Positions 2,723 through 36,456 of a stretch of DNA of 64,000 nucleotides are shown piece after piece. The notes beneath the pieces were generated by a model, which was given only the letters and a program-made list of their open reading frames with translations, did no database searches and was not told the origin of the DNA. The DNA is taken from contig NZ_QLNP01000063.1 of the NCBI RefSeq assembly GCF_003261175.1, forward strand, positions 152,703-216,702, written 5' to 3'. Origin of the DNA: Arthrobacter globiformis. Its GTDB lineage: Bacteria; Actinomycetota; Actinomycetes; Actinomycetales; Micrococcaceae. The translations under genes and the position numbers were made by a program. Position 1 is the stretch's first letter. Every line of letters begins with the position of its first letter.

Positions 2723-4447
2723 GTGTCCCACCCGATCGATGTCGGATCAGTACTTGGTGGCCGCTACAAGGTCACGGCCACTGTGCTGAGCTCGCATGAC
2801 CAGGATCTGGTGCTGGACGGTGTGGACCAGGTGCTGAACCGTTCGGTCAGCATCCTGGTGGCCGGCCCGTACAACGCCGACCAGGTGGCTCAAAGTGCCC
2901 GCGAAGTTGCCACGGGGGAGCGCCCCGGGAACGTGCAGATCTTGGACCTTGGTGTCAGCGACGCCACGACCTATCTGATCACCAACCACACCTCCGCGGC
3001 TGACCTGCTGGACCTTGTGGTTGCCTCCAACCCGCCCTACGTGGAGCCCTTCTTCACGGACACCCTGGGCAGCGAGATCTTCGGCCAGGCGCGCTCCCAC
3101 GAACCCGAAACCTACGACGAAGACGACGAGGTCGAAGCCGGGTACATCAACTACAGCGAAGGCCAGTCCGGGCCGGGCGGGCAGTACCCTGCCACCGCCC
3201 CGGCCCCTGCCGGCGGCCGGTCCACCCACGGGGCAGCGGCTCCGCAGGGCCGCGGGCAGCAGGCTCCTGCGCAGGCACCCGCAGCGCCAGTCCGGAAGGC
3301 TCCCGTTGTGCCGCCGCTTCCGATTGCCCGCCCCGTAGCGGGGCCGGCAGCGGGTGCGGCTGGTGCGGCAGCAGCTGGTGCGGCTGGTTCGCGGGGAAAC
3401 CGGCAGGGCGTCCCGGAAACCACTGCGCCGCAGCCGGTTCAGCCGGACAGAGGCTACGAGCAGGACGCCGGCCGCGAGTCCGTCCAGCACGACAACGTTG
3501 AGCAGGCGCTCCTGCACCGCGACAACAACCGTTCCGGAAGCGCCCCGCGCGGTGCGGCCGGTGCCGGTGCGGCGGCAGCAGGTTCCGCGGGGGCTTCCGG
3601 CGACGGCCGCGGCTCATCCAAGGTGTCGCTGTGGTCCGAGAACGACTATGACTACGCCCCCGAAGACGGGTATGACGACGAGGGCGGCGACGCGCACGAG
3701 CCGGACCGCCGTGCAGGCAATTTCCCTCCCGTCGCCCGCACCGGCACTGCTCCCGCAGCCGACTATTACGACGATGAAGACGACGAGCCGCAGAAGGAGC
3801 CGCGTTCCATGCGTTGGCTCGTTGGTGGCCTTCTCGCGGCCGTCCTGATCGTCGGACTTATCTTTGCCGTGACCAACCTCGGCAGCCTCTTCAAGAGTGC
3901 ACCGCAATCGGAAGCAACCCCCGGAGCCACCGCCCCGCCGTCGGCTGCCACCCAGCCGAGTACCGGTACGCCGGCCCAAAGCACCGCTCCGGCGGCAGGG
4001 CCGCCGGCCATCGAGGGGATCACCCGCCAGGGCAACTTTGATTTCGCTTCGACGTACGACGGCGACCTCGGCAAGGCGTCGGACGGAAACGCGGCGAGCT
4101 ACTGGTCAGACATGGAGTTTGCCACCGAGGACTGGGGCGGCCTTGCCCCCGAGGGTGTCCCCCTGGTGGTCAAGCTCAAGACCCCTTCCAAGGTCTCCTC
4201 GATCACCCTGAACCAGTTGGGCGCCTCGGGCGGAAACATCACGGTCTTCACCAACGACCGCCCCTCGCTGGACGGTGCAAAACAGGTGGGAACCAACAGC
4301 TTCACCTCGCCTGACCTCACCATGCCTCTGGCCGAACCGGTAACTGCCCAGTACGTCATCGTCTCGATCAAGAACCTGCCCAAGCTCGCAGCCCCGAAGA
4401 CCCGCTTTGGCTACGGCCTGCGGCTCGCGGAGATCAAGGTCCAGTAG
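2723..4447 (+). CDS. Membrane protein: truncated kinase-like domain, TM helix, discoidin-like ectodomain
   Basis: 574-aa single-pass protein starting at GTG behind a strong TAGGAGGA ribosome site. Residues about 8-110 resemble only the N-lobe of a Ser/Thr kinase (GGRYKVTATVLSSHDQDLVL); no HRD or DFG motif follows, so it should be catalytically dead. A long Ala/Gly/Pro and acidic linker (about 110-360) leads to one TM helix at about 364-386. The outer part, about 430-574, has a beta-rich pattern resembling a discoidin/galactose-binding fold. Known biology: in Mycobacterium tuberculosis the MviN pseudokinase domain is phosphorylated by PknB and bound by FhaA. Here it appears as a stand-alone partner of MurJ, and pknB and fhaA are in the same window. 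Partner role is inferred. Confidence 0.75.
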   Translation: MSHPIDVGSVLGGRYKVTATVLSSHDQDLVLDGVDQVLNRSVSILVAGPYNADQVAQSAREVATGERPGNVQILDLGVSDATTYLITNHTSAADLLDLVVASNPPYVEPFFTDTLGSEIFGQARSHEPETYDEDDEVEAGYINYSEGQSGPGGQYPATAPAPAGGRSTHGAAAPQGRGQQAPAQAPAAPVRKAPVVPPLPIARPVAGPAAGAAGAAAAGAAGSRGNRQGVPETTAPQPVQPDRGYEQDAGRESVQHDNVEQALLHRDNNRSGSAPRGAAGAGAAAAGSAGASGDGRGSSKVSLWSENDYDYAPEDGYDDEGGDAHEPDRRAGNFPPVARTGTAPAADYYDDEDDEPQKEPRSMRWLVGGLLAAVLIVGLIFAVTNLGSLFKSAPQSEATPGATAPPSAATQPSTGTPAQSTAPAAGPPAIEGITRQGNFDFASTYDGDLGKASDGNAASYWSDMEFATEDWGGLAPEGVPLVVKLKTPSKVSSITLNQLGASGGNITVFTNDRPSLDGAKQVGTNSFTSPDLTMPLAEPVTAQYVIVSIKNLPKLAAPKTRFGYGLRLAEIKVQ

Positions 4448-5702: not shown

Positions 5703-6029
5703 ATGAGCAACGCAAAAGACGTAACAGACGCAAGTTTCAGCAGTGACGTACTCGCCGCCGACAAGCCGGTAATCGTTGACTTCTGGGCCGAATGGTGCGG
5801 TCCGTGCCGGAAGCTGGGTCCCATCCTTGATGAGATCTCCGTTGAGTATGGCGAGAAGGTCAATGTCGTCAAGGTGAACGTTGATGACAACCCTGCCATC
5901 GCCGCCGAGTACGGCATCACCTCCATTCCTGCCGTGTACCTGTTCCAGGGCGGCGAAGTGAAGAGCACTGTCATCGGTGCCAAGCCGAAGCAGTTCTTCG
6001 AAAAGGAGTTCGCGGACGTCCTGTCCTAA
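5703..6029 (+). CDS. trxA: Thioredoxin
   Basis: 108-aa thioredoxin of normal length, the electron donor reduced by TrxB. The active site WCGPC lies at residues 31-35 (Cys32, Cys35) and the cis-proline motif SIPAVYLF follows. A GAGAGAGAC stretch upstream serves as ribosome site. It is the last gene of the forward operon and is followed by a strong intrinsic terminator. In mycobacteria the next gene here would be cwlM; in this window it is replaced by a long gene-free segment. Confidence 0.98.
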   Translation: MSNAKDVTDASFSSDVLAADKPVIVDFWAEWCGPCRKLGPILDEISVEYGEKVNVVKVNVDDNPAIAAEYGITSIPAVYLFQGGEVKSTVIGAKPKQFFEKEFADVLS

Positions 6030-6083
6030 GGCCAGACGCCGGACGGGGAACCTGATCGGGAACGCTGGTCAGGGTTCCGCCCA

Positions 6084-6126
6084 AAGGGTGGCCATTACTC
6101 CAAGGGGAGTGGTGGCCACCTTTTTG
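6084..6126 (+). terminator. Rho-independent terminator of trxA
   Basis: A stem of about 18 pairs, including GGTGGCCA pairing with TGGCCACC, has a four-base loop around 6102-6105 and ends in TTTTTG. It lies 55 bases after the trxA stop and closes the murJ-trxA side. Confidence 0.88.
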
Positions 6127-6561
6127 TTCCTCAGGTATTTCTCGGTGACGAAGTAACCATGGGCCCCGCTCCTTCTGTAAGGCATCTTGGGCAAGGTGCC
6201 CAAGGCCACTGCACGGCCGGGCAAGCTCCGGGTACAGTCGACTCGCCAGTCACCGGAGGCCACCGCCACCCTCTGGCCCATCATTCGCCGCGTCTAGGGT
6301 CCTCCATTGCGCCAGCGCCTTCCGCTGCGGGCTGTCAGGCGACGGAAGGAAACCTTTCGCGGTCTCGTTCACAGCAGTTCCTCGCCGAGAATCCCTCAGA
6401 CATCCGCGTTCGCGCTTCATGCTTCCTGCGCACCCACCGCCGCCAACCGCGGCTTATCGCGCCGCGCTCGATCCGGATTCGGGGGACTCGACGAAGGCAC
6501 ACTACCCGCCCCAGTGCGAACTGCCAGGCTCCTGCCTGGGACACGCCGCCCCAGAGGACGA

Positions 6562-6577
6562 TGTTTCACGTGAAACC
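6562..6577. other. parS site 1
   Basis: TGTTTCACGTGAAACC carries the complete 14-base ParB-binding palindrome GTTTCACGTGAAAC. It is the site closest to trxA. Confidence 0.95.
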
Positions 6578-7054
6578 AGCCGCACCTCCGGGCCCCCTGA
6601 GGCGGGTGCCACACCACGTCCACAAGAGCACAGGATGAACATTACAGTCTGCGCTGTCGACACTCTCGTTGCTCAAACTGGCGAAATCCGCTGTTCAGCA
6701 GGGCAGCATGGACGAGCACTAGCGCACGGGGAAATGCCAGGTACGCGTCACTGTCTAAGCCACCCGGGCGGATTGAATAGACCGTGACAGGGGTTGTCAT
6801 TGCACAAGCGCTGGGAAGACAACTGTGTCTGCCCCCGCCGCCCGCTGGGGGTACGACATCAGTGCGTACAGAAGTACCCAGTAGTTACCCTGTGAGCTCT
6901 CGAATCACTCTCCAGTTGAGCGATACCACGCGGTGGCCCTTGGGCCGCGTTCGCTGGACGAGCACTACGCTCGAGCGTCATCTAGAGCCGCAACCGCATG
7001 CGCGCCGAGGCATCCCACGAGCGTCCTCAGTAAGGGGATGCCACGCAGTGCACT

Positions 7055-7070
7055 TGTTTCACGTGAAACA
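7055..7070. other. parS site 2 (perfect)
   Basis: TGTTTCACGTGAAACA is the exact 16-base bacterial parS consensus, palindromic throughout. Confidence 0.97.
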
Positions 7071-8006
7071 TGAACCGTAAGCCGGGCGGGATTTCGTGTT
7101 CGAGTCCTTGGAAGTTCTAGGTTTACAGCCCCCCAAAGGTGAGGGTGCGCGCTAGGCTGCCTCCTTATGACCGTGTCGACGGCAAAACCAGCGAGAAGAG
7201 CTGAGCTTTCCCCGCTTTCGCGGTCGGGGCGGCGCTCAAACGAACCAAAGCCGAACACTGCTCACCACCGTCTCGGCCATGTCGCCCCCTGTGCCCGTCC
7301 AATGAGGAATGCCGACGTCGCCCCTCACTCACCAAAACGGGAACCCCACCAACAACGTCCAGCACCCTAAGCGCCTCGACCACCACAATCGCAGCATGCA
7401 GGCCATGCCCAACGTAGGCCATTGCGCACGCCGCAATGCAGCCGTTGGGCCGCATGACAACTGTATAAGGCAGATCGCGCCGAGCAGAACGCACCCAGGC
7501 AAAGGGCTAAGACGAAACTCACCCCAACTGGACGCGATAAGTGTCCGGGTACGGCCCGACCTCTCAGCTCACACGGGCACGTAATACTTCCCTTCTAGGA
7601 ACGCCGGCGCGACCCGCTTCCTACTCCACCACGGGGCAACACTGAGGGTGCGCCGCAAAAAAGCAGGCGCCAGCGTCCGTCCGGACCGACCATCATAGTG
7701 CGGTCACCAGCCTCCTTGCTAACACTTAACGCCGAGTGCGGAATGGGCGTTAGTTGAAATGTCGACTCGGTACCATCATGCGCACTTCTCATCGTGCCGC
7801 CACTGTAGTCGCCCAGCACCGGTACCAAGAAACCACCGGGCATGTCCTCAGGAGCTTCCGGTCTCGGGAGCATCCGGAGCGCTCCTAGCATGGCGGCCAG
7901 ATGCACGGGGCCGGGCCACTCCATTGGGCTATGATGCAGTGCCCGTCTGTCCCGCGACTAAGAGTCCGATTTCGCGCTGCTCGTGGCCACGAGTTATCGT
8001 CCGGCC

Positions 8007-8022
8007 AGTTTCACGTGAAACG
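8007..8022. other. parS site 3
   Basis: AGTTTCACGTGAAACG has a complete 14-base core with different outer bases. It starts only 56 bp before site 4, the closest pair in the field. Confidence 0.93.
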
Positions 8023-8062
8023 TGACCTACACCACGATGGTGCACCCGCACGCCAGGAACAG

Positions 8063-8078
8063 TGTTTCACGTGAAACA
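8063..8078. other. parS site 4 (perfect)
   Basis: TGTTTCACGTGAAACA is the exact 16-base consensus. Confidence 0.97.
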
Positions 8079-8350
8079 AGGCAGGCAAACTCCGGCGGAA
8101 GCGTAGCTACCAGCCGACCTCTTCCCAACATTGGGGGCCCCTCTCCACCCGGCGTCGGGTAACCACTCGAACAACCTAAGCGAGGGGCTATGCAGGTATC
8201 GGCCACGTTTCTGGCTCTAAAATTGCGCGCAGGCCGCCGCTGCTTATCTGGGACCAGCGGGCATGCACGGATGCCGCCGGATGATGCCCCTTGACCTGCG
8301 CGTCGGCTCAGCTGTTGATAGGGACCTGCTGATGTCCCGGTGGGTTGCAA

Positions 8351-8366
8351 GGTTTCACGTGAAACC
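8351..8366. other. parS site 5
   Basis: GGTTTCACGTGAAACC is a 16-base perfect palindrome with the full core. Its outer bases match those of the copy inside parA. Confidence 0.95.
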
Positions 8367-9572
8367 ACGCGTGGAGTGCTGGTGGCCTTCGATCTGTAGC
8401 ATCACCACAATCGCGGTGGGATCCGCGCCACGTGCCTCCGCTGACTCCACGACCATGCCTGGCCCTTCCCGCCCCTGTCTTACGAGACGCGGCACCGAGT
8501 CCACTAGGGGGAGCGCGATGGAATTCGAATTGAGACTTCGGCGGATTTCGACTTGGCTGCCCTGCTCTAGGTCTCAGGTATGGGAAGCCACATGCGTGCG
8601 TGCCCAGCCTTCCTTTATGCACGGAAGCGAGAGCAGCAAGATCACCCCATCGTTAAGCTCTAGGGACCACAGGGCGGGGTCGTCACCGCCGTCTCATTTA
8701 GGCTCCTCAGCGTCCGGTGCAGACCTCACCGTTAGAGGAGCCGAACCGCGCCCATAGCCACGATAGCTTCCGCGCGGCTTCCGGTAGGGGGATGAGTGCA
8801 GCGCGTGCCTCCGGCCCCCGGCTGGCGCGACGGCTGGCGAACCGGAAGGCAATCAAGTGTGAACGAGCGAAGGCTAGCCCGTGGCCAGCTCGCAACTCCC
8901 TTCTTTGTGGTGCCGTTCATACTGGCTGCAGCGCACGGGCAGTGCCGCCAGCGGCTACCGCACACGCCCGAAGACCACGCAGGACGTCAGAATAGAGCTC
9001 CATCACTGCGCCGCCCATGCTCCCGGTGTTTCGACTACAGCCCAGAGAGGACTCACTGGGGTCCTATGGGACCTGCAATCTTTCGTGAGATTCGCACCGC
9101 ACTCCAGGGACCGTTGCATTTGGATCGGGATCCTGCGCGCAGAACTGTTCGAACGGGCTCTGCACTGTAGGACGCAGGACGAAGAAGGTAAGACGACATA
9201 GGTTCATGGGCTCGACCACCGTGCTGCGGGGCATGCGTTTCTGCTGCTTGATGAGGAGCTCAACGATCATGAGGGCCGAGACATTTTTAACCACCTCGAT
9301 CGGCCGATGACCCAATCACCAGGGACCCCCTGGGCCCCGGCACCCCCTGCTGTACTGCCCCTTGGCACCAGCGAATGCCTGGGGCGGAATCGACGTTACT
9401 AGACTGGCCCCTCGCTGGTCAGACCAGCGCCGAAGAGGGCGACAGCGGACAGTACAAATCCTTCGTTGCAGCTGCTCCGCAACCGCAACACAGGTCCCTT
9501 CGATGACAATGAAATGAGCCACGAGCGTGAATCGTGGCTGACGGGCGCCATGTACTAGGTCTCACCATGACA

Positions 9573-9617
9573 TTATTCACAGTGTTATCCACAGGCGAAT
9601 CCACAGGCTTATCCACA
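9573..9617 (+). repeat. Tandem array of four DnaA boxes, 12-bp period
   Basis: Four 9-base boxes start at 9573, 9585, 9597 and 9609, exactly 12 bp apart: TTATTCACA, TTATCCACA, GAATCCACA, TTATCCACA. Two equal the DnaA-box consensus, one differs at one base and one at two. All face the same way, so neighbouring boxes are a little over one helical turn apart. The repeat unit is TTATCCACAGGC-like, as in plasmid iterons. No gene overlaps it. Confidence 0.85.
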
Positions 9618-9853
9618 ACGCATGGCGGAAGGCAACGGCACATTCGCTCAGTCGGTGAAGAGCCTCACAGCGCGCGCTATTCAAGGGACGTCACGTCACC
9701 GGCCGAGTGTCGCGGTTTTCGGATAGTCGGTCGGCAAGCACGGGGACCGGCTCGGGCAGTGAAACGCGGTGTAGGTAACCATATTGATTCGGTGAACTGC
9801 TCGTGGAGCACATGGAGGAGAATCGAAACCAGGTGTGCGGGAAACCAGTCTTC

Positions 9854-9869
9854 AGTTTCACGTGAAACA
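9854..9869. other. parS site 6, between the two DnaA-box arrays
   Basis: AGTTTCACGTGAAACA has a complete core. It lies 236 bp after the first DnaA-box array and 83 bp before the second. Confidence 0.95.
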
Positions 9870-9952
9870 ACAAGTGAGCGCCTAGCGTCTTCGGGTGTCA
9901 CGCGGGCCAGGACAACTCCTCTAGGCGGCTCCTGGGGGAAAGCGGGAGCACG

Positions 9953-10009
9953 ATATCCACCCCGATACCCACAAGGTTATCCACATGCTTATCCACCGGC
10001 TTATCACCT
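9953..10009 (+). repeat. Tandem array of five DnaA-like boxes, 12-bp period
   Basis: Boxes start at 9953, 9965, 9977, 9989 and 10001, again exactly 12 bp apart: ATATCCACC, ATACCCACA, TTATCCACA, TTATCCACC, TTATCACCT. The central one is the perfect consensus and the others carry one to three changes. In one frame the array reads as a YPxx tetrapeptide repeat, an artefact of the 12-bp period. Confidence 0.8.
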
Positions 10010-10519
10010 AGCTTCCGGGGCGGAAACTTGTGTAGGAGCCTGTGTCACCTGTCGGTCAGAACTGGTCGGTCCGGTGCCAGAGCTCGTCCGGCGACAGCCT
10101 CCGCCTCAGCGCAACCCGCTGGCATCGTCGTGCTCGATGCAGACCGATCCTGCGGTCTCAGCTCGCGGCACATCCCACCCATCGGTCGGGGCTCGCCTTT
10201 ACAGAAGCCACGAATAGGTCCTCGCGGCGCAGGCCCATTCAGAGACTGGGAAATCCAGTCGATGGGTGAGTGGTATGCACGGGCACATTCGCAGCAACAT
10301 CTGTCAGCCACTCGCGGCATGTGCTAAACGCCGTTGCGATCCGTCATGGTCTCCTTTCGTCAGAGCCTTACGGTTGTTGGGCGTCGCAACTTCTGTCTGT
10401 CGCCGGGCACGGACCTTCGGCGGGAATGGCTGCATAAATCCCAAACTTTGGGCGAGTCACCCAGTGAAGGCGATGGGCGCCGGCGCGACTGCTGATCAGT
10501 CGAACGGCGCATGCCGGAA

Positions 10520-10535
10520 CGTTTCACGTGAATCG
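10520..10535. other. parS-like site 7 (degenerate)
   Basis: CGTTTCACGTGAATCG has one change in the right half of the core (GAATC instead of GAAAC). It probably binds ParB more weakly or is a decaying site. Confidence 0.6.
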
Positions 10536-11092
10536 CATGCTGGCCCGCGCTTCACGCCGAGCTGCGGAGGAGGGAGAAGAGGATCATTTGCGTTTCCGCA
10601 GCGGCTGGCAGGGGAGGTCAGTGAACGCGCGATGTGGGGACCAAGGAATGCCGTACCGTTCGCCGCCGCATGCGCGAGCGTCCAGGATCTGCGTACCCCC
10701 GGACCACCAAGCGGGCCCAGGGTAGGACCAGTTGTAGGCCGGGGGACACGCATCCCAGGGGCTACGATTGAGGGGCCGGGAGGATCACAGAACTGCTGTA
10801 CACCGTCCTCCTTCTAGGTCTAGGTTCTCGCCGTGGCTCCTCTGTTCCCCGAATACTGACCATGGTTCCGCCTGCCCTCAGTTGGGCCTTCGAGCTGACG
10901 CGCTTTGCAGCAAGCGCTGAGGCGCCCGGCCGTTGGCTTTCCAGTCGGCCGTAGGACCCATGCGCGGCTGCCGAGCCACTCTCACTATGGCACATCGAAA
11001 ATCGAAGGGGCCAGCCCGGCTAGAAGTGGCCCGACACTGCAGAACTCGTACACCCCTCGTTGGCTGTCAGGCGGGCGGCCAACTGGTTGCCG

Positions 11093-11108
11093 CGTTTCAC
11101 GTGAAACA
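11093..11108. other. parS site 8
   Basis: CGTTTCACGTGAAACA has a complete 14-base core. Confidence 0.95.
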
Positions 11109-11469
11109 GCGCCGGACAAGGGTCCGCTTCGTCGGAGCGCCACCAACCCCGTTGGCACGCCAACCTACACCTTTGGCGGCCCTTGAGTTACGCCGCTAGA
11201 GGTCAACTCTCGTCCATCTCTGTGGCGACGAAATCTGCTAGCAATGCAGCGAGTTGATCGATCATTTGAGTGCAAGTAGGACGCTGATCCTTTTGCGGCA
11301 TTCAGCCAAATCGCCCTAGTTCCGACGGGCGGACTGCAAAAAGTGCAGTCCAAGGGACTGTACTGGTGTATCTATCGGGCCGGATGTTTGGAGAAGAGGG
11401 GACACAAAGGCCATCGCGGAAATGCACCTCGAGCAGAAGCTCAGCCGTCTATTGGACCACGTGCGTGTA

Positions 11470-11485
11470 CGTTTCACGTGAAACA
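11470..11485. other. parS site 9
   Basis: CGTTTCACGTGAAACA has a complete 14-base core and is the site nearest parB in the non-coding field. Confidence 0.95.
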
Positions 11486-12082
11486 GCGCAACAGACGCGG
11501 CGGCGGCACTAGTGCTGATGTCGCGCGGCCGAACCGAGGCCGACTGCCTGGCGCTTTCACATCACCAAGGACACGCAGGGCACACGCTAAGAGCTAGCAG
11601 CACCGTAGAAGGCAGAATGGCTGCAGAAGCGACTAGGCGGCCCTGAAAGCAGCCAAGGACGTCTCTCTGGCCCCTAACGCCGCGCTCTCGCGTCCGCAGT
11701 GCACCATCCTCCGCCAGGGACCGAAGACAAGCAACTGTGGTTCCGGCAAATTGTTAGGAATGCGGCACCGAGCGTGATGGTGGCAGACAGTTGCGGTCGG
11801 CCGAATTCCCAATGGCGCAGGAAAGTCTCGGGCCGCAGCCACATGAAAAGGACGACGGCCGCTCTGTTGCGTCCAACCCCTGAGCCAGGTTTCGTCCCCA
11901 CCGACATGGGTGCTGGTTGTCCGCAAGGCAACCGTGGAATCCGCAACCCACGAGCCGTCAGCCAGTTGCTGAAGCTCAATTCATCTTGACTGTACGACCA
12001 AGACAGGTGCCGCACAGCCCAACCTTGGTCCCACGGCAATAGCGTCTGTAGAAGCAGCGAAGGAAAAAGACCTCAAGGTACA

Positions 12083-12116
12083 GAAAAGGGCCCGTTCACC
12101 TGAACGGGCCCTTTTC
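12083..12116 (-). terminator. Rho-independent terminator of parB
   Basis: A perfect 16-bp inverted repeat, GAAAAGGGCCCGTTCA and its complement, has a two-base centre. It starts 13 bases beyond the parB stop. Read from the minus strand the stem ends in TTTTC. It closes the rpmH-to-parB direction. Confidence 0.88.
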
Positions 12117-12128
12117 GATAGAGGTTCT

Positions 12129-13469
12129 TTAGTTTTCCGCGCCTGGCGCGAGAACGTCCATGATGCGGTTCAGATCTTCAACGCTAGCGAATTCGATACT
12201 CACGCGCCCCTTTCGCGCTCCGAGCGAGATCTTCACGTTGGTGTCGAGCCTGTCCGAGAGCGAGGAGGCCAGATAATCCAGCCGCTCGTGACGTGCGCCT
12301 GGGCGCGGAATATTGTTCTTCGCCGGCGTCGCGGGTTCACGGTGCAGGGTGACCGCTTCTTCGGTGGCTCGGACCGACATGCCCTCAGCCACAATCTTCT
12401 GCGCCAGGCGTTCCATGGAGGCAGCGTCGGGAAGCGAGAGGAGAGCCCTGGCATGGCCGGCGGACAGCACATTGGCCGCAACACGACGCTGCACCAGCGG
12501 CGGGAGCTTCAACAGCCGCAGAGTGTTGGACACCTGCGGGCGTGAACGGCCGATACGGTCAGCCAACTGCTCGTGCGTTGTTCCGAAGTCCTCCAGCAGC
12601 TGCTGGTAGGCGGCCGCCTCTTCCAGCGGATTAAGCTGGCTGCGGTGCAGGTTCTCCAGAAGTGCGTCGCGGAGCAGGTCGTCATCCGTCGTGTCCCGGA
12701 CAATCGCGGGGATCGTGGAGAGTCCAGCGGCTTGGACTGCCCGCCACCGACGTTCACCCATGACAAGTTCATACGGTTCTCCACCCTTTTCGGTTGAAGT
12801 CCGCACCACAATTGGCTGGAGGACGCCTATTTCACGAACGGAGTGAACGAGCTCCGCCATGTCGTCCTCATCGAAGACAGAACGGGGCTGTTTACGGTTT
12901 GGGTGGATGTCGGTGACAGGAATCTCGGCAAAACGGACGCCCGGTACCTCGACGAGATCGACGCCGTTGTCCGAGACAGCAGCCGAGTCTACGTTCTCCC
13001 CGGCAGCGGCGGCCCGGGCAGAAGCGGCAAGCTTCTCATCCGCCGACGGCGTGCCAGGGCGGACGGCTTCAGACTTCCCAGCATCCTTGTCGGCCTTGGT
13101 CGCCCCGGCCTTTGCAGAAACCGCGCCGGCCTCCGAGTCACCGCTCCTGGAAGCGGCGGTCTTCGCCGCGGACTTGGCAGGGGAGGGCTTCGCCGCATCC
13201 GAAGTACTCTCGGTGCCTGCATCCGTACCCGCTGCATCCGTACCCGCCTCGGCCAAAGCCTTCAGACCGGAGCGGCGTGCAGGCGTTTCGTCGAGATCTG
13301 GCGTATCCGGCTCAACGGCCGGGGCGGGTTCAGCCGTCTTGCGCGCCTCGGGGAAGAACAGATCCACGGGGCGCGACGGAGCTGCTCCGTTACCCGAAGC
13401 GCTTGCGGACGCGGAACTTGGAATGAGTGCGCCAAGACCGCGACCGAGCCCGCGTCGCTTATCGCTCAT
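12129..13469 (-). CDS. parB: Chromosome-partitioning protein ParB
   Basis: 446-aa ParB, a CTP-dependent DNA clamp that loads at parS and spreads to organise the origin for ParA-driven segregation. The N terminus [15 protein letters not shown] is the usual ParA-interacting peptide. A long Ala/Ser/Asp-rich linker (about 20-170) precedes the conserved core with [14 protein letters not shown], the CTP-binding [12 protein letters not shown], and the helix-turn-helix around [18 protein letters not shown]. The C-terminal dimerisation domain is present. The linker is longer than in many ParBs. Nine parS-type sites lie just beyond its 3' end and one lies inside parA. Confidence 0.97.
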
Positions 13470-13536
13470 GGATGATTCCCTCCATCGGAAGAGCCCGGCT
13501 ATGCCGGGCTCCGGCTGTTGCTGTGTTTGGAAAATT

Positions 13537-14589
13537 CTAACGCTCAGCGATTTCCGCTGCGGCTTCCAGATAGGACAACGCGCCGCTGGAGGATGGATCG
13601 TAGGTCATGACCGTCTGCTGGTAGCTCGGCGCTTCGGAGATTCGCACGGAGCGCGGCACGACGGCGCCGAGGACCTGATCCGGGAAGTGCTGGCGGACTT
13701 CAGCTGCGACCTGAGCGGCCAGGTTGGTCCGCCCGTCGTACATGGTCAGCAGAATGGTGGAAACCTCCAGATCTGCATTCAGGTGCTTCTGGATCATCTC
13801 TATGTTCTTCAGCAGCTGGCTCAGTCCCTCGAGTGCATAGTATTCGCACTGGATGGGGATGAGCACCTCGCCGGCCGCACAGAAGGCATTGACCGTCAGC
13901 AGGCCCAGGCTGGGCGGGCAATCGATGAAGATGTAGTCGAGCCGCTGCTCGCCCTTCTTCTGCCGTGCCTTGGCATAGACGTCGATGGCTCGGCGGAGGC
14001 GCTGCTCGCGTGCCACCAGGGAGACGAGCTCGATCTCGGCGCCGGCCAAGTGGATAGTGGCCGGAGCGCAGATGAGGTTGCTGATGTCCGGGCACTGTGC
14101 AACGACGTCTTCGAGAGGCAGATCGTTGATCAGGACATCGTAGATGCTGTCGACGTCGGCATGGTGCTCAATGCCCAGTGCCGTGGACGCGTTGCCCTGC
14201 GGGTCGATGTCGATGACCAGGACGTTCAAGCCAGCAGCCGCCAGCGCCGCAGCGATGTTGACGGTGGTGGTGGTCTTTCCCACTCCACCCTTTTGATTTG
14301 AAACCGTGAAGATGCGCGTCTTCTCCGGCTTGGGCAGGTTGCGCCCGAGGAGCCGTTCCCGCCTTCTGTTCTCGTGCGCCAGTTCCCGCGCGATGGGGCT
14401 CGAGTCATCGAGGGTATCCAGGACGTTGCCCCGCGCCGCGGTTTCACGTGAAACCTTGGGGGCACTCGTGGCTGCAACCGGACTGGGCTGATTTAGCGTC
14501 GTAGCGACCGGTGATACGCCAAAGGCACGCGCCGACCCCAGAGACACGAACGGGGGGATCCGCTGCGTGGAGGTTTCGCTACTGGTCAC
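13537..14589 (-). CDS. parA: Chromosome-partitioning ATPase ParA
   Basis: 350-aa Walker-type ATPase that drives origin segregation with ParB. The deviant Walker [10 protein letters not shown] follows an N-terminal extension of about 95 residues; the remaining ParA motifs ([17 protein letters not shown]) are in place. The extension includes KVSRETA, which is encoded by a parS site. parB follows after 67 bases, so they form one transcription unit. The gap of 85 bases to rsmG upstream can hold a promoter. Confidence 0.97.
14440..14455. other. parS site inside parA
   Basis: GGTTTCACGTGAAACC, a perfect 16-base palindrome, lies within the coding region for the ParA N-terminal extension and encodes part of VSRET. 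It is the only parS I found inside a gene in this window. Confidence 0.93.
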
Positions 14590-17890: not shown

Positions 17891-18362
17891 GTTAGTTACT
17901 CCAGTGGATCAAAGGTGCGCCCACCCGATCAGTAAAGGGGAAGAACTGGCCGACGCTAAGTTTTGTATGTGTCTGCTTCCCCTGGATTTTCCCGGAACAC
18001 ATAAGCGTCCGAGAGTCCAAAATGGGGTCAGAAAGCAGGCACAAAGGACTCCACAACGTTAGGGCAAAACGCCGCCGGGAGTCAAACCGGCAGGCCATTC
18101 CGCGTGTTTCCCCAGCTGTGGCTAACGGTGCGGCGAACCTGTGGACGAAGCGGCTACCGATCGCCGTTTTAGAACCACAACGGTGTAATTATCCACAAGG
18201 CACTTCCCAGCTATCTTCTAGGCTTTTCATCCCCTAGAGTGTCCCAGTAGCCGATTATCCACGGACTGTGCATAACCCTGTGGATTAAGCCGGGCCAGCA
18301 CCCTGGTTTCGGGCTTGCGGCTGCATGTAATGCAGACAGCAAGCTTTGAGGAACCAAATTTG
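17891..18362. other. oriC, left part: rpmH-dnaA intergenic region
   Basis: 472 bases between divergent rpmH and dnaA hold both promoters and DnaA boxes. Boxes seen: TGTGGCTAA (18117), perfect TTATCCACA (18189-18197), TTATCCACG (18255), TGTGCATAA (18267) and TGTGGATTA (18279). The last three are spaced exactly 12 bp, with the first facing opposite to the others. The boxes next to dnaA should also give autoregulation. Promoter hexamers could not be fixed reliably by eye. Confidence 0.85.
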
Positions 18363-19784: not shown

Positions 19785-20322
19785 TCCCAGGTTCTTAACC
19801 TTATTAACAGGGGGGTGTGGATAACCCTGTGGACAGTTAAGGGGACAACCGCCGTTAATGGGCTTAAAACCCTTAAGGTGTCTGTGGATCACCGCAACAG
19901 GCCAAAAAGGTTGTCCCCATCCACACCCTGTTTAAAACGTGCCGAACCCACAGTCCATGAACAGGGCTTAACCGCGGATCCCGGCCGTGAAACCGGGTTA
20001 TCCACAGTTTCCACAGCAGTTATTAACACTACTAATCCCAAAAAATTGAAATCCCTCAAATAACAATCTCGTTCCCGGACCTCCACCGCACCAGCCCAAG
20101 CATCGGCCACCGCGCCCCGGCAGAGCCGGCATCACCGGCGGGGATGGGGAAATCCTCGGAGTTCCGGCTAAGCTGTCTGCAGCGCTCCCATCCCTGGGTT
20201 TGTTTGCGGTCGCCCATGCGCGGACCATGCAGGTTCCGGGACTTCGGGGGCACCGGTCTTATGGGCTCCTTGCGAGTTCCCGTTCAGAAAATGGCAGCAG
20301 CAATGAAAGGCGGCACCCTTCC
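19785..20322. other. oriC, right part: dnaA-dnaN intergenic region
   Basis: 538 bases rich in DnaA boxes. Seen: TGTGGATAA (19816-19824) and TGTGGACAG (19828-19836), 12 bp apart; TGTGGATCA (19883); CCATCCACA (19917); TTATCCACA (19998-20006) with GTTTCCACA directly behind it. Next comes an AT-rich stretch at about 20017-20070 with TTATTAACACTACTAAT and AAAAAATTGAAA, the likely unwinding element; read on the other strand it contains TAGTAG, resembling the DnaA-trio. The remaining 250 bases before dnaN are GC-rich and hold the dnaN promoter. Together with the left part this is the probable chromosomal origin. Confidence 0.88.
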
Positions 20323-35364: not shown

Positions 35365-35768
35365 TTTTCCACAGCTGTTATCCACACTGTTAATAACTTA
35401 CACAGTTGTAAGTCAACTCTTGGCCCCTGCGATAGCGGGCTGGTGGGCCACTTCCGATCATTTTGCACGCCTCCGTCCACACGCGTGGATAACTTCGAGG
35501 CCTGCCCTTGTGGTTAAGTGGACAACTTTGCCCAAATCCGGCCTCAGCGGGGCCTCTTGGGGATAAGCAGGCAAATCAGCGTCGGGGAAGGGGATTATTG
35601 GGCGCACTTTCAACAGGGTTATTCACACTGTTAATAACTCACCGGGATGTCATTCAGGGGTTGAGAGGCTCCTCAACCCCTACATTCTGGCGTCGGCGTC
35701 ATCGCTACCCACAAGTTTTCCCCATCTGTGGATAACTTGTGGGTAGCCGCCTGTTGCTAAGTGGATAA
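35365..35768. repeat. DnaA-box cluster A, between the rhomboid and AhpD-like genes
   Basis: Boxes: TTTTCCACA (35365), perfect TTATCCACA (35378), CGTGGATAA (35484), TGTGGTTAA (35509), TGGGGATAA (35558), TTATTCACA (35619), perfect TGTGGATAA (35727), AGTGGATAA (35760). Two are followed after one base or less by TGTTAATAACT (35389-35399; 35629-35639). The cluster fills nearly all of the 595-base intergenic region, which has no gene of its own. Confidence 0.75.
35704..35747. repeat. 14-bp perfect inverted repeat enclosing a DnaA box
   Basis: GCTACCCACAAGTT (35704-35717) and AACTTGTGGGTAGC (35734-35747) are exact complements with a 16-base spacer. A perfect DnaA box, TGTGGATAA, spans the edge of the right arm (35727-35735). 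No T-run follows, so it does not look like a terminator. Confidence 0.7.
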
Positions 35769-35849
35769 CCCGCCGCGCGCGCAGCGCGCCCGTGTAGTCT
35801 CTGACTGAGAGCCGCGGGGGTGAACCCGTGGGACCCGAGGAGCAATGAC

Positions 35850-36317
35850 TTGACTACCCACAGCCACATCTTCCTGGACAAGCATCACCCCGCGGCCTGG
35901 CGGGCGCTGAATGGGCTCGGGCTGAAGGCCAAGGAAGCGATGCTGGAAGCCGGCCTGGACGAAAAGCTCATCGAACTGCTCAATGTCCGGATATCGCAGA
36001 TCAACGGCTGCGCGTATTGCCTCGACATGCACGTCGCCGATGCCGTCAAGGGCGGTGAATCCACGCAGCGCCTGGCCGTCCTGCCAGCTTGGCGGGACAC
36101 CGCGGTGTTTGAGGACCACGAGCGCGCAGCGCTGGCCTTGGCCGAGAGCATCACGGTTCTCCCCGATGCCCGCACGCGCGATCTGGAGGACGCCTGCGCG
36201 CGGGAGCACCTCACAGACGAGCAATACTCAGCCGTGAGCTGGCTGGCCATCGCGATGAACGCCTTCAACCGCGTGTCCATCACCAGCCAGCACCCTGTCC
36301 GCCCTCAGAAGGACTGA
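35850..36317 (+). CDS. AhpD-like carboxymuconolactone decarboxylase family protein
   Basis: 155 aa. The redox pair of the AhpD family is visible as NGCAYCLDMH (CxxC then His three residues on) after LLNVRISQI. The family includes alkylhydroperoxidase-like enzymes. The start is TTG at 35850 with GAGGAG seven bases before; GTG at 35820 in frame lacks a ribosome site. No partner gene is nearby, and the gene sits between two DnaA-box clusters, so its expression could respond to DnaA (inference). Confidence 0.85.
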   Translation: MTTHSHIFLDKHHPAAWRALNGLGLKAKEAMLEAGLDEKLIELLNVRISQINGCAYCLDMHVADAVKGGESTQRLAVLPAWRDTAVFEDHERAALALAESITVLPDARTRDLEDACAREHLTDEQYSAVSWLAIAMNAFNRVSITSQHPVRPQKD

Positions 36318-36325
36318 ACGCACGG

Positions 36326-36456
36326 TTTTCCACAGTCATTTCCACAACTGTTAATAACTTCAAATATGCAAGTTTGGCCATCCGGACGCCGCCAGCCCGG
36401 CGCGCATTGCCTTTTCCTTGGGCTGCAGTCAACGAAGTTATCAACAGTGTGGATAT
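36326..36456. repeat. DnaA-box cluster B, after the AhpD-like gene
   Basis: TTTTCCACA (36326), ATTTCCACA (36338) directly followed by ACTGTTAATAACTT, then TTATCAACA (36438) and TGTGGATAT (36448). The TGTTAATAACT word is the third copy in this neighbourhood. It lies in the 208-base gap before the convergent Tag-like gene. Confidence 0.65.

Follow-up and report, generated by a model that had tools for sequence, protein, structure and literature searches.

What could two regularly spaced arrays of DnaA boxes be doing around a parS site, in DNA that apparently codes for nothing, about 10 kb from the replication origin? The question is raised by the window analyzed here, a stretch of 64,000 nucleotides (C31:152703-216702) from an assembly of 88 contigs and 4.88 Mb. 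The ParB protein encoded in the window has 92% identity to ParB of Arthrobacter sp. AFG20 and 89-90% to the next two proteins, and, as read from these identities, the window is a piece of an Arthrobacter chromosome (Micrococcaceae). The gene order is murJ, an ORF, trxB and trxA, then a long gap, followed by parB, parA, rsmG, yidC and yidD, all directed leftward, and finally dnaA and dnaN. The ORF in the murJ/trxB interval (2723-4447, 574 aa) had no Pfam match at E 0.001. Features of the window are collected in Table 1.

Table 1. Coordinates of the features discussed, counted from the first nucleotide of the window.
Feature	Position	Strand	Description
trxA-parB gap	6027..12131		6105 bp, apparently gene-free, 9 of the 10 genomic parS
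parS	6563..6576		exact
parS	7056..7069		exact
parS	8008..8021		exact
parS	8064..8077		exact
parS	8352..8365		exact
DnaA-box array A	9573..9617	+	four boxes, 12-bp pitch: 9573, 9585, 9597, 9609
midpoint element	9774..9797		24-bp pseudo-palindrome, degenerate in the window: GGTAACC...TTCGGTGAAC
parS between arrays	9855..9868		exact GTTTCACGTGAAAC; 122 bp before the exact B box at 9977
DnaA-box array B	9953..10009	+	five boxes, 12-bp pitch: 9953, 9965, 9977, 9989, 10001
parS	10521..10534		1 mismatch
parS	11094..11107		exact
parS	11471..11484		exact
parB	12129..13469	-	Pfam ParB_N, HTH_ParB, ParB_C
parA	13537..14589	-	Pfam AAA_31, CbiA
parS in parA	14441..14454		exact
dnaA	18315..19784	+	GGRDHTTV in the DNA-binding domain
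dnaA-dnaN intergenic origin	19785..20199		AT-rich, trio-like element near 20008-20067

The trxA-parB gap and its parS sites

The assembly contains ten parS-like sites with at most one mismatch, nine of them exact, and all lie within 8 kb of each other (window 6563-14454). As nine of the ten are located between trxA and parB, and the tenth inside parA, this gap is the likely centromere of the chromosome. Clustered parS sites near oriC and beside parAB are what a ParABS centromere consists of, and by its sequence the gap is a compact centromere with multiple parS. The original prediction, which had singled out the parS between the DnaA-box arrays, overlooked that this site is one of ten and that the surrounding 6.1 kb are apparently gene-free. 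In relatives from the Arthrobacter group, the parB-trxA gap contains a median of 8 exact parS, its length ranging from 4.0 to 9.4 kb across loci, and multi-parS clusters are common across the family and the order.

Several observations suggest that the gap is indeed gene-free. First, none of nine gap ORFs of 106-227 aa matched a Pfam family at E 0.001 or 0.01. Second, GC content by codon phase is nearly flat in the gap (spread 0.01-0.14 in 600-bp steps), while the spread reaches 0.55 in coding stretches, some of which are low as well. Third, tblastn of 42 gap ORFs of at least 60 aa against the other gaps yielded any match for five, mostly in the nearest relatives, and near the trxA flank or over the arrays. 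A location of the arrays inside a gene was considered and rejected, the ORF that spans them (9534-10217, 227 aa) having no Pfam match; its matches in four related loci are explicable by the array DNA itself.

The DnaA-box arrays and their conservation

Both arrays were found as predicted, with all boxes on one strand and spaced by exactly 12 bp, and an exact parS is present between them, its core beginning one base pair to the right of the predicted 9854. Box by box, array A has 1, 0, 2 and 0 mismatches to TTATCCACA, and array B has 2, 2, 0, 1 and 3; the last box of array B (10001-10009) is very degenerate and is not counted as a firm site. The claim that such a register exceeds chance expectation was upheld by two kinds of shuffling. 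The window contains 29 boxes with at most one mismatch against a mean of 4.2 in shuffled sequences, none of 100 shuffles reaching 29. Chains of four boxes with period 12 on the plus strand number one if three mismatches are allowed in total and two if five are allowed; no such chain was found in 30 Markov shuffles scanned on both strands. In the entire 4.88-Mb assembly there are ten pairs of boxes at 12 bp (at most 3 mismatches in 18 positions): five in arrays A and B, two around dnaA, one at window 36.3 kb, and two elsewhere. As dense groups of consensus DnaA boxes outside oriC, the arrays have the composition of a DnaA-box cluster (DBC).

Other groups of DnaA boxes are present on both sides of the origin. 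A cluster of 11 sites with at most one mismatch (window 35365-36456) is located after a rhomboid gene, approximately 15.5 kb to the right of dnaA-dnaN; it contains three copies of the 11-mer TGTTAATAACT, found otherwise in the window only in the dnaA-dnaN origin, and the minimum of the window's cumulative GC skew is at 36.4 kb. Likewise, all three complete relatives have clusters roughly +16 to +18 kb away from the contig start. To the left of the window, two exact boxes occur within 370 bp (C31:123599-123967), about 47 kb left of dnaA, and three complete relatives have box clusters at -55 to -79 kb.

To follow the arrays in related genomes, 103 trxA-parB gaps were collected, 95 of them distinct. 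Spacings and pairs were counted in the 90 gaps of at least 3.5 kb, the five shorter ones being cut contigs; for loci without trxA a default stretch was taken, 6.5 kb in the gap collection and 8 kb in the distribution survey. Counting boxes with at most one mismatch, the 90 gaps contain 503 on the plus strand and 26 on the minus strand, and pairs of boxes are spaced by 12 bp in 199 cases, by 13 bp in 25 and by 11 bp in two; 20 shuffled sets of gaps gave a mean of 33 boxes and no pairs at 12 bp. Of the 90 distinct Arthrobacter-group gaps, 87 have paired arrays, which lie 321-404 bp from each other, so that, as sequence motifs, initiator sites do stand among parS sites. The exceptions are L077, with arrays approximately 1.85 kb apart, L135, where one array was seen, and L109, with neither arrays nor an identifiable trxA. 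A pattern search found array pairs in at least 23 of 24 genomes of the same genus, a sample that overlaps the 90 gaps and is not independent of them. Lack of the 12-bp register in relatives had been named in advance as evidence against the prediction; the register is conserved.

The remainder of the gap is not. Compared with the gaps of the two nearest relatives, it is 0.52 and 0.55 identical, where shuffled sequence gives 0.42 and 0.41 and 4-fold sites of parB and dnaA reach 0.77-0.88; in 14 of 14 close pairs picked by hand, conservation of the gap falls below that of the 4-fold sites of both genes. As codon bias may slow the latter, we do not claim that the gap evolves faster than neutral DNA; still, the retention of the arrays in filler that is close to saturation in this genome points to selection on them. 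In distant gaps, similarity to the gap of the window is confined to the arrays and to the 200 bp that follow trxA, the exceptions being matches of a single locus in each of the 100-bp bins at 6527 and 9627, and an alignment of 87 cores has four conserved blocks (array A, a midpoint block, parS and array B) and little else. In array B, the register next to the strong box reads ATATCCACC in 45 of 86 loci and is thus a conserved weak box.

An artefact of chance or shared ancestry has the relatedness of the loci in its favor, yet it is extremely improbable, since the arrays exceed shuffled expectation and survive in otherwise nearly saturated DNA; we regard it as excluded for the arrays, while the 11-12-bp phasing described below, taken by itself, could be partly inherited. 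It is also quite improbable that the sites are genuine and mainly bound by another protein, such as a nucleoid protein with a similar motif. DnaA binding is predicted here from the motif, which leaves room for such a binder; against it, the array consensus is that of the oriC boxes of the same genome, DnaA carries GGRDHTTV, and the strong box is exact in 66 of 87 loci for array A and 76 of 86 for array B.

The taxonomic distribution was surveyed with a strict rule that overlooks some true cases. Arrays were recorded in 68 of 80 named loci, with at least five of the misses being cut contigs, as well as in 6 of 7 loci of genus g1, 5 of 6 of g21 and 3 of 4 of g33, the misses in these three genera still having 3-5 plus-strand boxes within 600 bp. 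By the same rule, no arrays were found in 29 other genera of the family, represented by 37 loci, or in 14 other families, represented by 20. As all 37 loci contain parB, the arrays are dispensable for ParABS as such. In a four-gene tree (61 tips, 1302 columns), 17 array loci fall into one clade of 20 tips (support 0.995), the three remaining tips being threshold misses with 3-5 boxes each. The arrays are thus conserved over a clade of three genera, the Arthrobacter group and two further ones, and, judging from this distribution, look like a single later addition.

Spacing, parS position and the midpoint element

Two features of the region were overlooked in the original prediction, a conserved element midway between the arrays and the quantization of distances. 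The midpoint element is pseudo-palindromic in the alignment of relatives (AAATcAACC-N7-GGCGATTT). A de novo search of the sequence between the arrays, with parS masked, returned the motif AATcAACC..aat..GGCGATTT (12.6 bits, against 5.4 in shuffled sequence), and its picks fall at relative position 0.51 of the A-B distance (10-90% range 0.48-0.55), although position was not used in the search. After training on 43 loci, the motif was scored across 44 held-out gaps, and in 27 of them the best match of the whole gap fell at the midpoint (1.2% expected), the held-out loci being related to the training loci and the test not fully independent. In the other 17 gaps the best match lies elsewhere. The window is among them: the trained model misses its degenerate copy, the best score between the arrays being 2.2, at 9696. 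In g21 the best plus-strand match is near the midpoint in 5 of 6 loci (scores 0.9 to 10.5, some of them weak), and in g33 it is so in 2 of 4 (3.8 and 3.6). The pattern is not unique by itself, as 3-8 matches per genome were found in ten genomes when up to two mismatches were allowed.

Five distances were compared between loci: from A to B, from A to the element, from the element to B, from A to parS, and from parS to B. They vary over 34-83 bp and cluster at steps of approximately 11-12 bp. When each 80% ParB cluster was represented by a single locus (n 32-37), the highest R for periodicity was 0.51-0.83, and for each of the five distances all 300 uniform nulls stayed below it; when the loci were grouped into 13 clusters, the element-B (0/300) and parS-B (2/300) distances alone beat the null. 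In this test, 84 of 87 ParB sequences, those of at least 380 aa, were clustered, and the maximum over all scanned periods was compared with a matched null; the null assumes uniform spacing and is not an evolutionary model, and the 11.8-bp period was first picked post hoc. For distances to the midpoint element, a locus had to score above 5 for the motif within the central fifth of the stretch from A to B, which left 69 of 87. Distances to remote parS gave R of at most 0.09 (n=657). A second test, based on changes between paired loci, was weak: R was 0.22 for A-B changes and 0.13 for changes larger than 4 bp (controls 0.10 and 0.03), with partial ParB sequences included in the clustering and erratic cluster numbers. 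The steps, near 11.1 bp for element-B and 11.8 bp for A-B, fit helical phasing in vivo and gain or loss of 12-bp units equally well.

The strong B box has a parS within about 145 bp in all 87 loci. The nearest one lies 109-143 bp before it in 75 loci and 76-103 bp after it in the other 12, one of which (L129) also has a parS between the arrays. In g33, all four loci have a parS that follows the anchor box of array A at 103-116 bp. In the sister genus g21, it precedes array A by 77-78 bp in 2 of 6 loci; in the remaining four no parS occurs within about 290 bp of either array, the nearest being approximately 297-704 bp from the first A box. Hence a parS near one array recurs, and its side changes; since its position is not fixed in g21, parS adjacency is not essential to the arrays. 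Bracketing of a parS was accordingly abandoned as the defining feature of the locus.

Candidate functions and known systems

Could replication start at the arrays themselves? The boxes are dense and unidirectional, with a spacing like that of iterons; mean GC, about 0.61 around the arrays, drops to about 0.49 halfway from one to the other, and in one relative the array region falls to 0.33 over 60 bp, within the range of dnaA-dnaN regions (0.30-0.37). A second start or unwinding site, or a relic of an iteron origin, is nevertheless hardly credible. In the window, GC over 60 bp stays at 0.43 or above throughout the gap but falls to 0.30 in dnaA-dnaN, which makes a start site at the arrays unlikely; among relatives, the lowest value has a median of 0.42 (n=87), and downstream of dnaA one of 0.32 (n=77), a GC minimum of 0.00 in control segments being most likely due to runs of N. 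Inspected by eye, trio-like runs were seen only in dnaA-dnaN and none beside the arrays, so that the AT-rich unwinding element or DnaA-trio of an origin was not found next to them. An initiator (Rep) gene of its own, as expected for an iteron origin, was not recognized by Pfam among the nine ORFs tested. The GC-skew minima of three complete relatives lie to the right of dnaA, 10-21 kb right of the contig start near it, and not at the arrays; as the skew is weak and the minimum of the window falls at 36.4 kb, skew does not settle whether the real origin is elsewhere. Two of the functions initially proposed found no support: the unwinding site, because both a trio-like run and a strongly AT-rich stretch are present in dnaA-dnaN and neither was seen here, and the iteron relic, because of the long-term constraint, the oriC-like TTATCCACA consensus and the lack of an initiator gene among the tested ORFs. 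The other two, regulation of DnaA by titration or reactivation and cross-talk between ParB and DnaA, both stand. The dnaA locus itself has five DnaA-box-like sites upstream of dnaA (18117-18287) and three after it, giving the origin a bipartite look.

According to the former of the two, the arrays would be a regulator of the datA/DARS or DnaA-box-cluster type, which binds DnaA after each initiation and inactivates or titrates it. This is a real, if somewhat less than even, prospect; on this view the centromere would merely offer gene-free, early-replicated DNA, ParB being irrelevant. Two arrays on either side of an AT-flanked site that resembles a palindrome bring to mind datA and DARS2, where IHF or Fis shape the binding of DnaA, and DnaA-box clusters outside the origin of Bacillus subtilis provide a precedent (PMC5295017). 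That review describes six such clusters, whose joint removal leads to early initiation, and states elsewhere that they play no significant role (PMC5295017). Moreover, further clusters flank the origin in the present chromosome (35365-36456 and approximately 47 kb left of dnaA), and, as these origin-near clusters sit outside the centromere, the arrays may be just another one of them. Titration, however, leaves unexplained both the parS that accompanies the strong B box in all 87 loci and the quantized spacings, and as a passive sink the arrays would be small, with 3 of the 36 exact boxes of the assembly.

We therefore favor cross-talk, in view of the position of the arrays inside the centromere and their geometry relative to parS. 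The predicted DnaA nucleoprotein site within the partition complex may couple the state of the initiator to segregation or origin firing, a proposal that we consider about equally likely to prove right or wrong; it is preferred to a datA- or DBC-like regulator on account of precedents in Vibrio, Caulobacter and Deinococcus and of the general biology of DnaA and ParB. A DnaA filament that runs head to tail from a strong box is well served by boxes 12 bp apart on one strand, and ParB clamps loaded at parS slide over adjoining DNA. In the proposed mechanism, DnaA would bind each comb cooperatively and head to tail, with one protomer per approximately one helical turn, nucleating on one or two strong boxes and spreading to the weak ones. 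A dimeric or bending protein at the midpoint site could align the filaments so that both occupy corresponding faces of the helix. From the flanking parS, where they are loaded, ParB clamps would slide into the array DNA, and DnaA and ParB occupancy would affect each other. The level or nucleotide state of the initiator could thereby be read at the centromere and adjust assembly or release of the partition complex, and/or ParB loading could evict DnaA and feed back on oriC. Several observations weigh against coupling: the midpoint element of the window is degenerate, and 17 of 44 held-out gaps have their best motif match elsewhere; parS has no fixed position in g21; parB occurs without arrays in the 29 other genera sampled; further DnaA-box clusters near the origin are outside the centromere; and part of the periodicity might come from whole 12-bp box units being gained and lost.

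A more elaborate version is doubtful. It pictures a helically phased initiator-centromere machine, in which two directional DnaA filaments would stand equidistant around a central site for a dimer, and ParB would be loaded next to one of them in constant phase; the machine would assemble once per cycle inside the partition complex and gate both centromere release and re-initiation, and the centromere around it would be specific to the lineage, with filler that outpaces synonymous sites in turnover.

Coupling of replication and segregation is known mainly from Caulobacter, Bacillus and Vibrio. The co-location described here suggests that copying and segregation of the chromosome may be wired together at one spot in a common and harmless soil genus, in an apparent built-in DnaA-centromere junction of simple, deletable anatomy. 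Eighty-odd natural variants reveal the spacings that are tolerated, the 29 sampled genera of the family without arrays serve as natural controls, and the question of whether DnaA acts at the centromere outside Caulobacter becomes directly testable. By analogy, non-coding centromere filler that diverges beyond 4-fold sites while protein-binding sites are kept recalls the fast-evolving centromeres of eukaryotes.

Among actinobacteria, H69 of Streptomyces is a DnaA-box cluster outside oriC that affects initiation; we know of no parS context for it. No report of such arrays in Arthrobacter or any actinobacterium was found in a search of open-access literature. Initiator sites at a centromere as such are already known; the present layout and the occurrence in Actinomycetota appear to be new. 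The arrays share with datA and DARS2 of Escherichia coli the non-coding DnaA boxes, combined there with architectural-protein (IHF/Fis) sites (PMC5295017), of which the midpoint pseudo-palindrome of relatives is a candidate counterpart; they differ in lying inside a centromere, E. coli being described as having no parABS (PMC4255298). With the B. subtilis clusters (Okumura 2012, cited in PMC5295017) they share a location outside oriC and near the origin, those clusters affecting free DnaA; unlike the arrays, these have neither a parS link nor a phased double array as described in that review.

The closest precedents are DnaA at parS in Caulobacter and RctB at parS2 on chromosome II of Vibrio cholerae, and contacts between ParB and DnaA have been reported in Vibrio and Deinococcus (PMC7022226). 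At rctA/parS2, initiator sites and parS are intermingled, and spreading ParB2 out-competes the initiator at inhibitory 39-mers (PMC3688505; PMC6399470), which offers a model for ParB prevailing over DnaA (PMC3688505); there, however, the chromosome is a secondary one, the initiator is RctB and not DnaA, and the 39-mers are not DnaA boxes. In Caulobacter crescentus, as in Arthrobacter, initiator sites lie in the centromere near oriC: DnaA binds the parS region through DnaA boxes (Mera et al., 2014, cited in PMC6399470), and DnaA at levels too low for replication still starts parS movement (PMC6399470). Arthrobacter belongs to an unrelated phylum, and its boxes form two 12-bp combs around a midpoint element within a multi-parS centromere.
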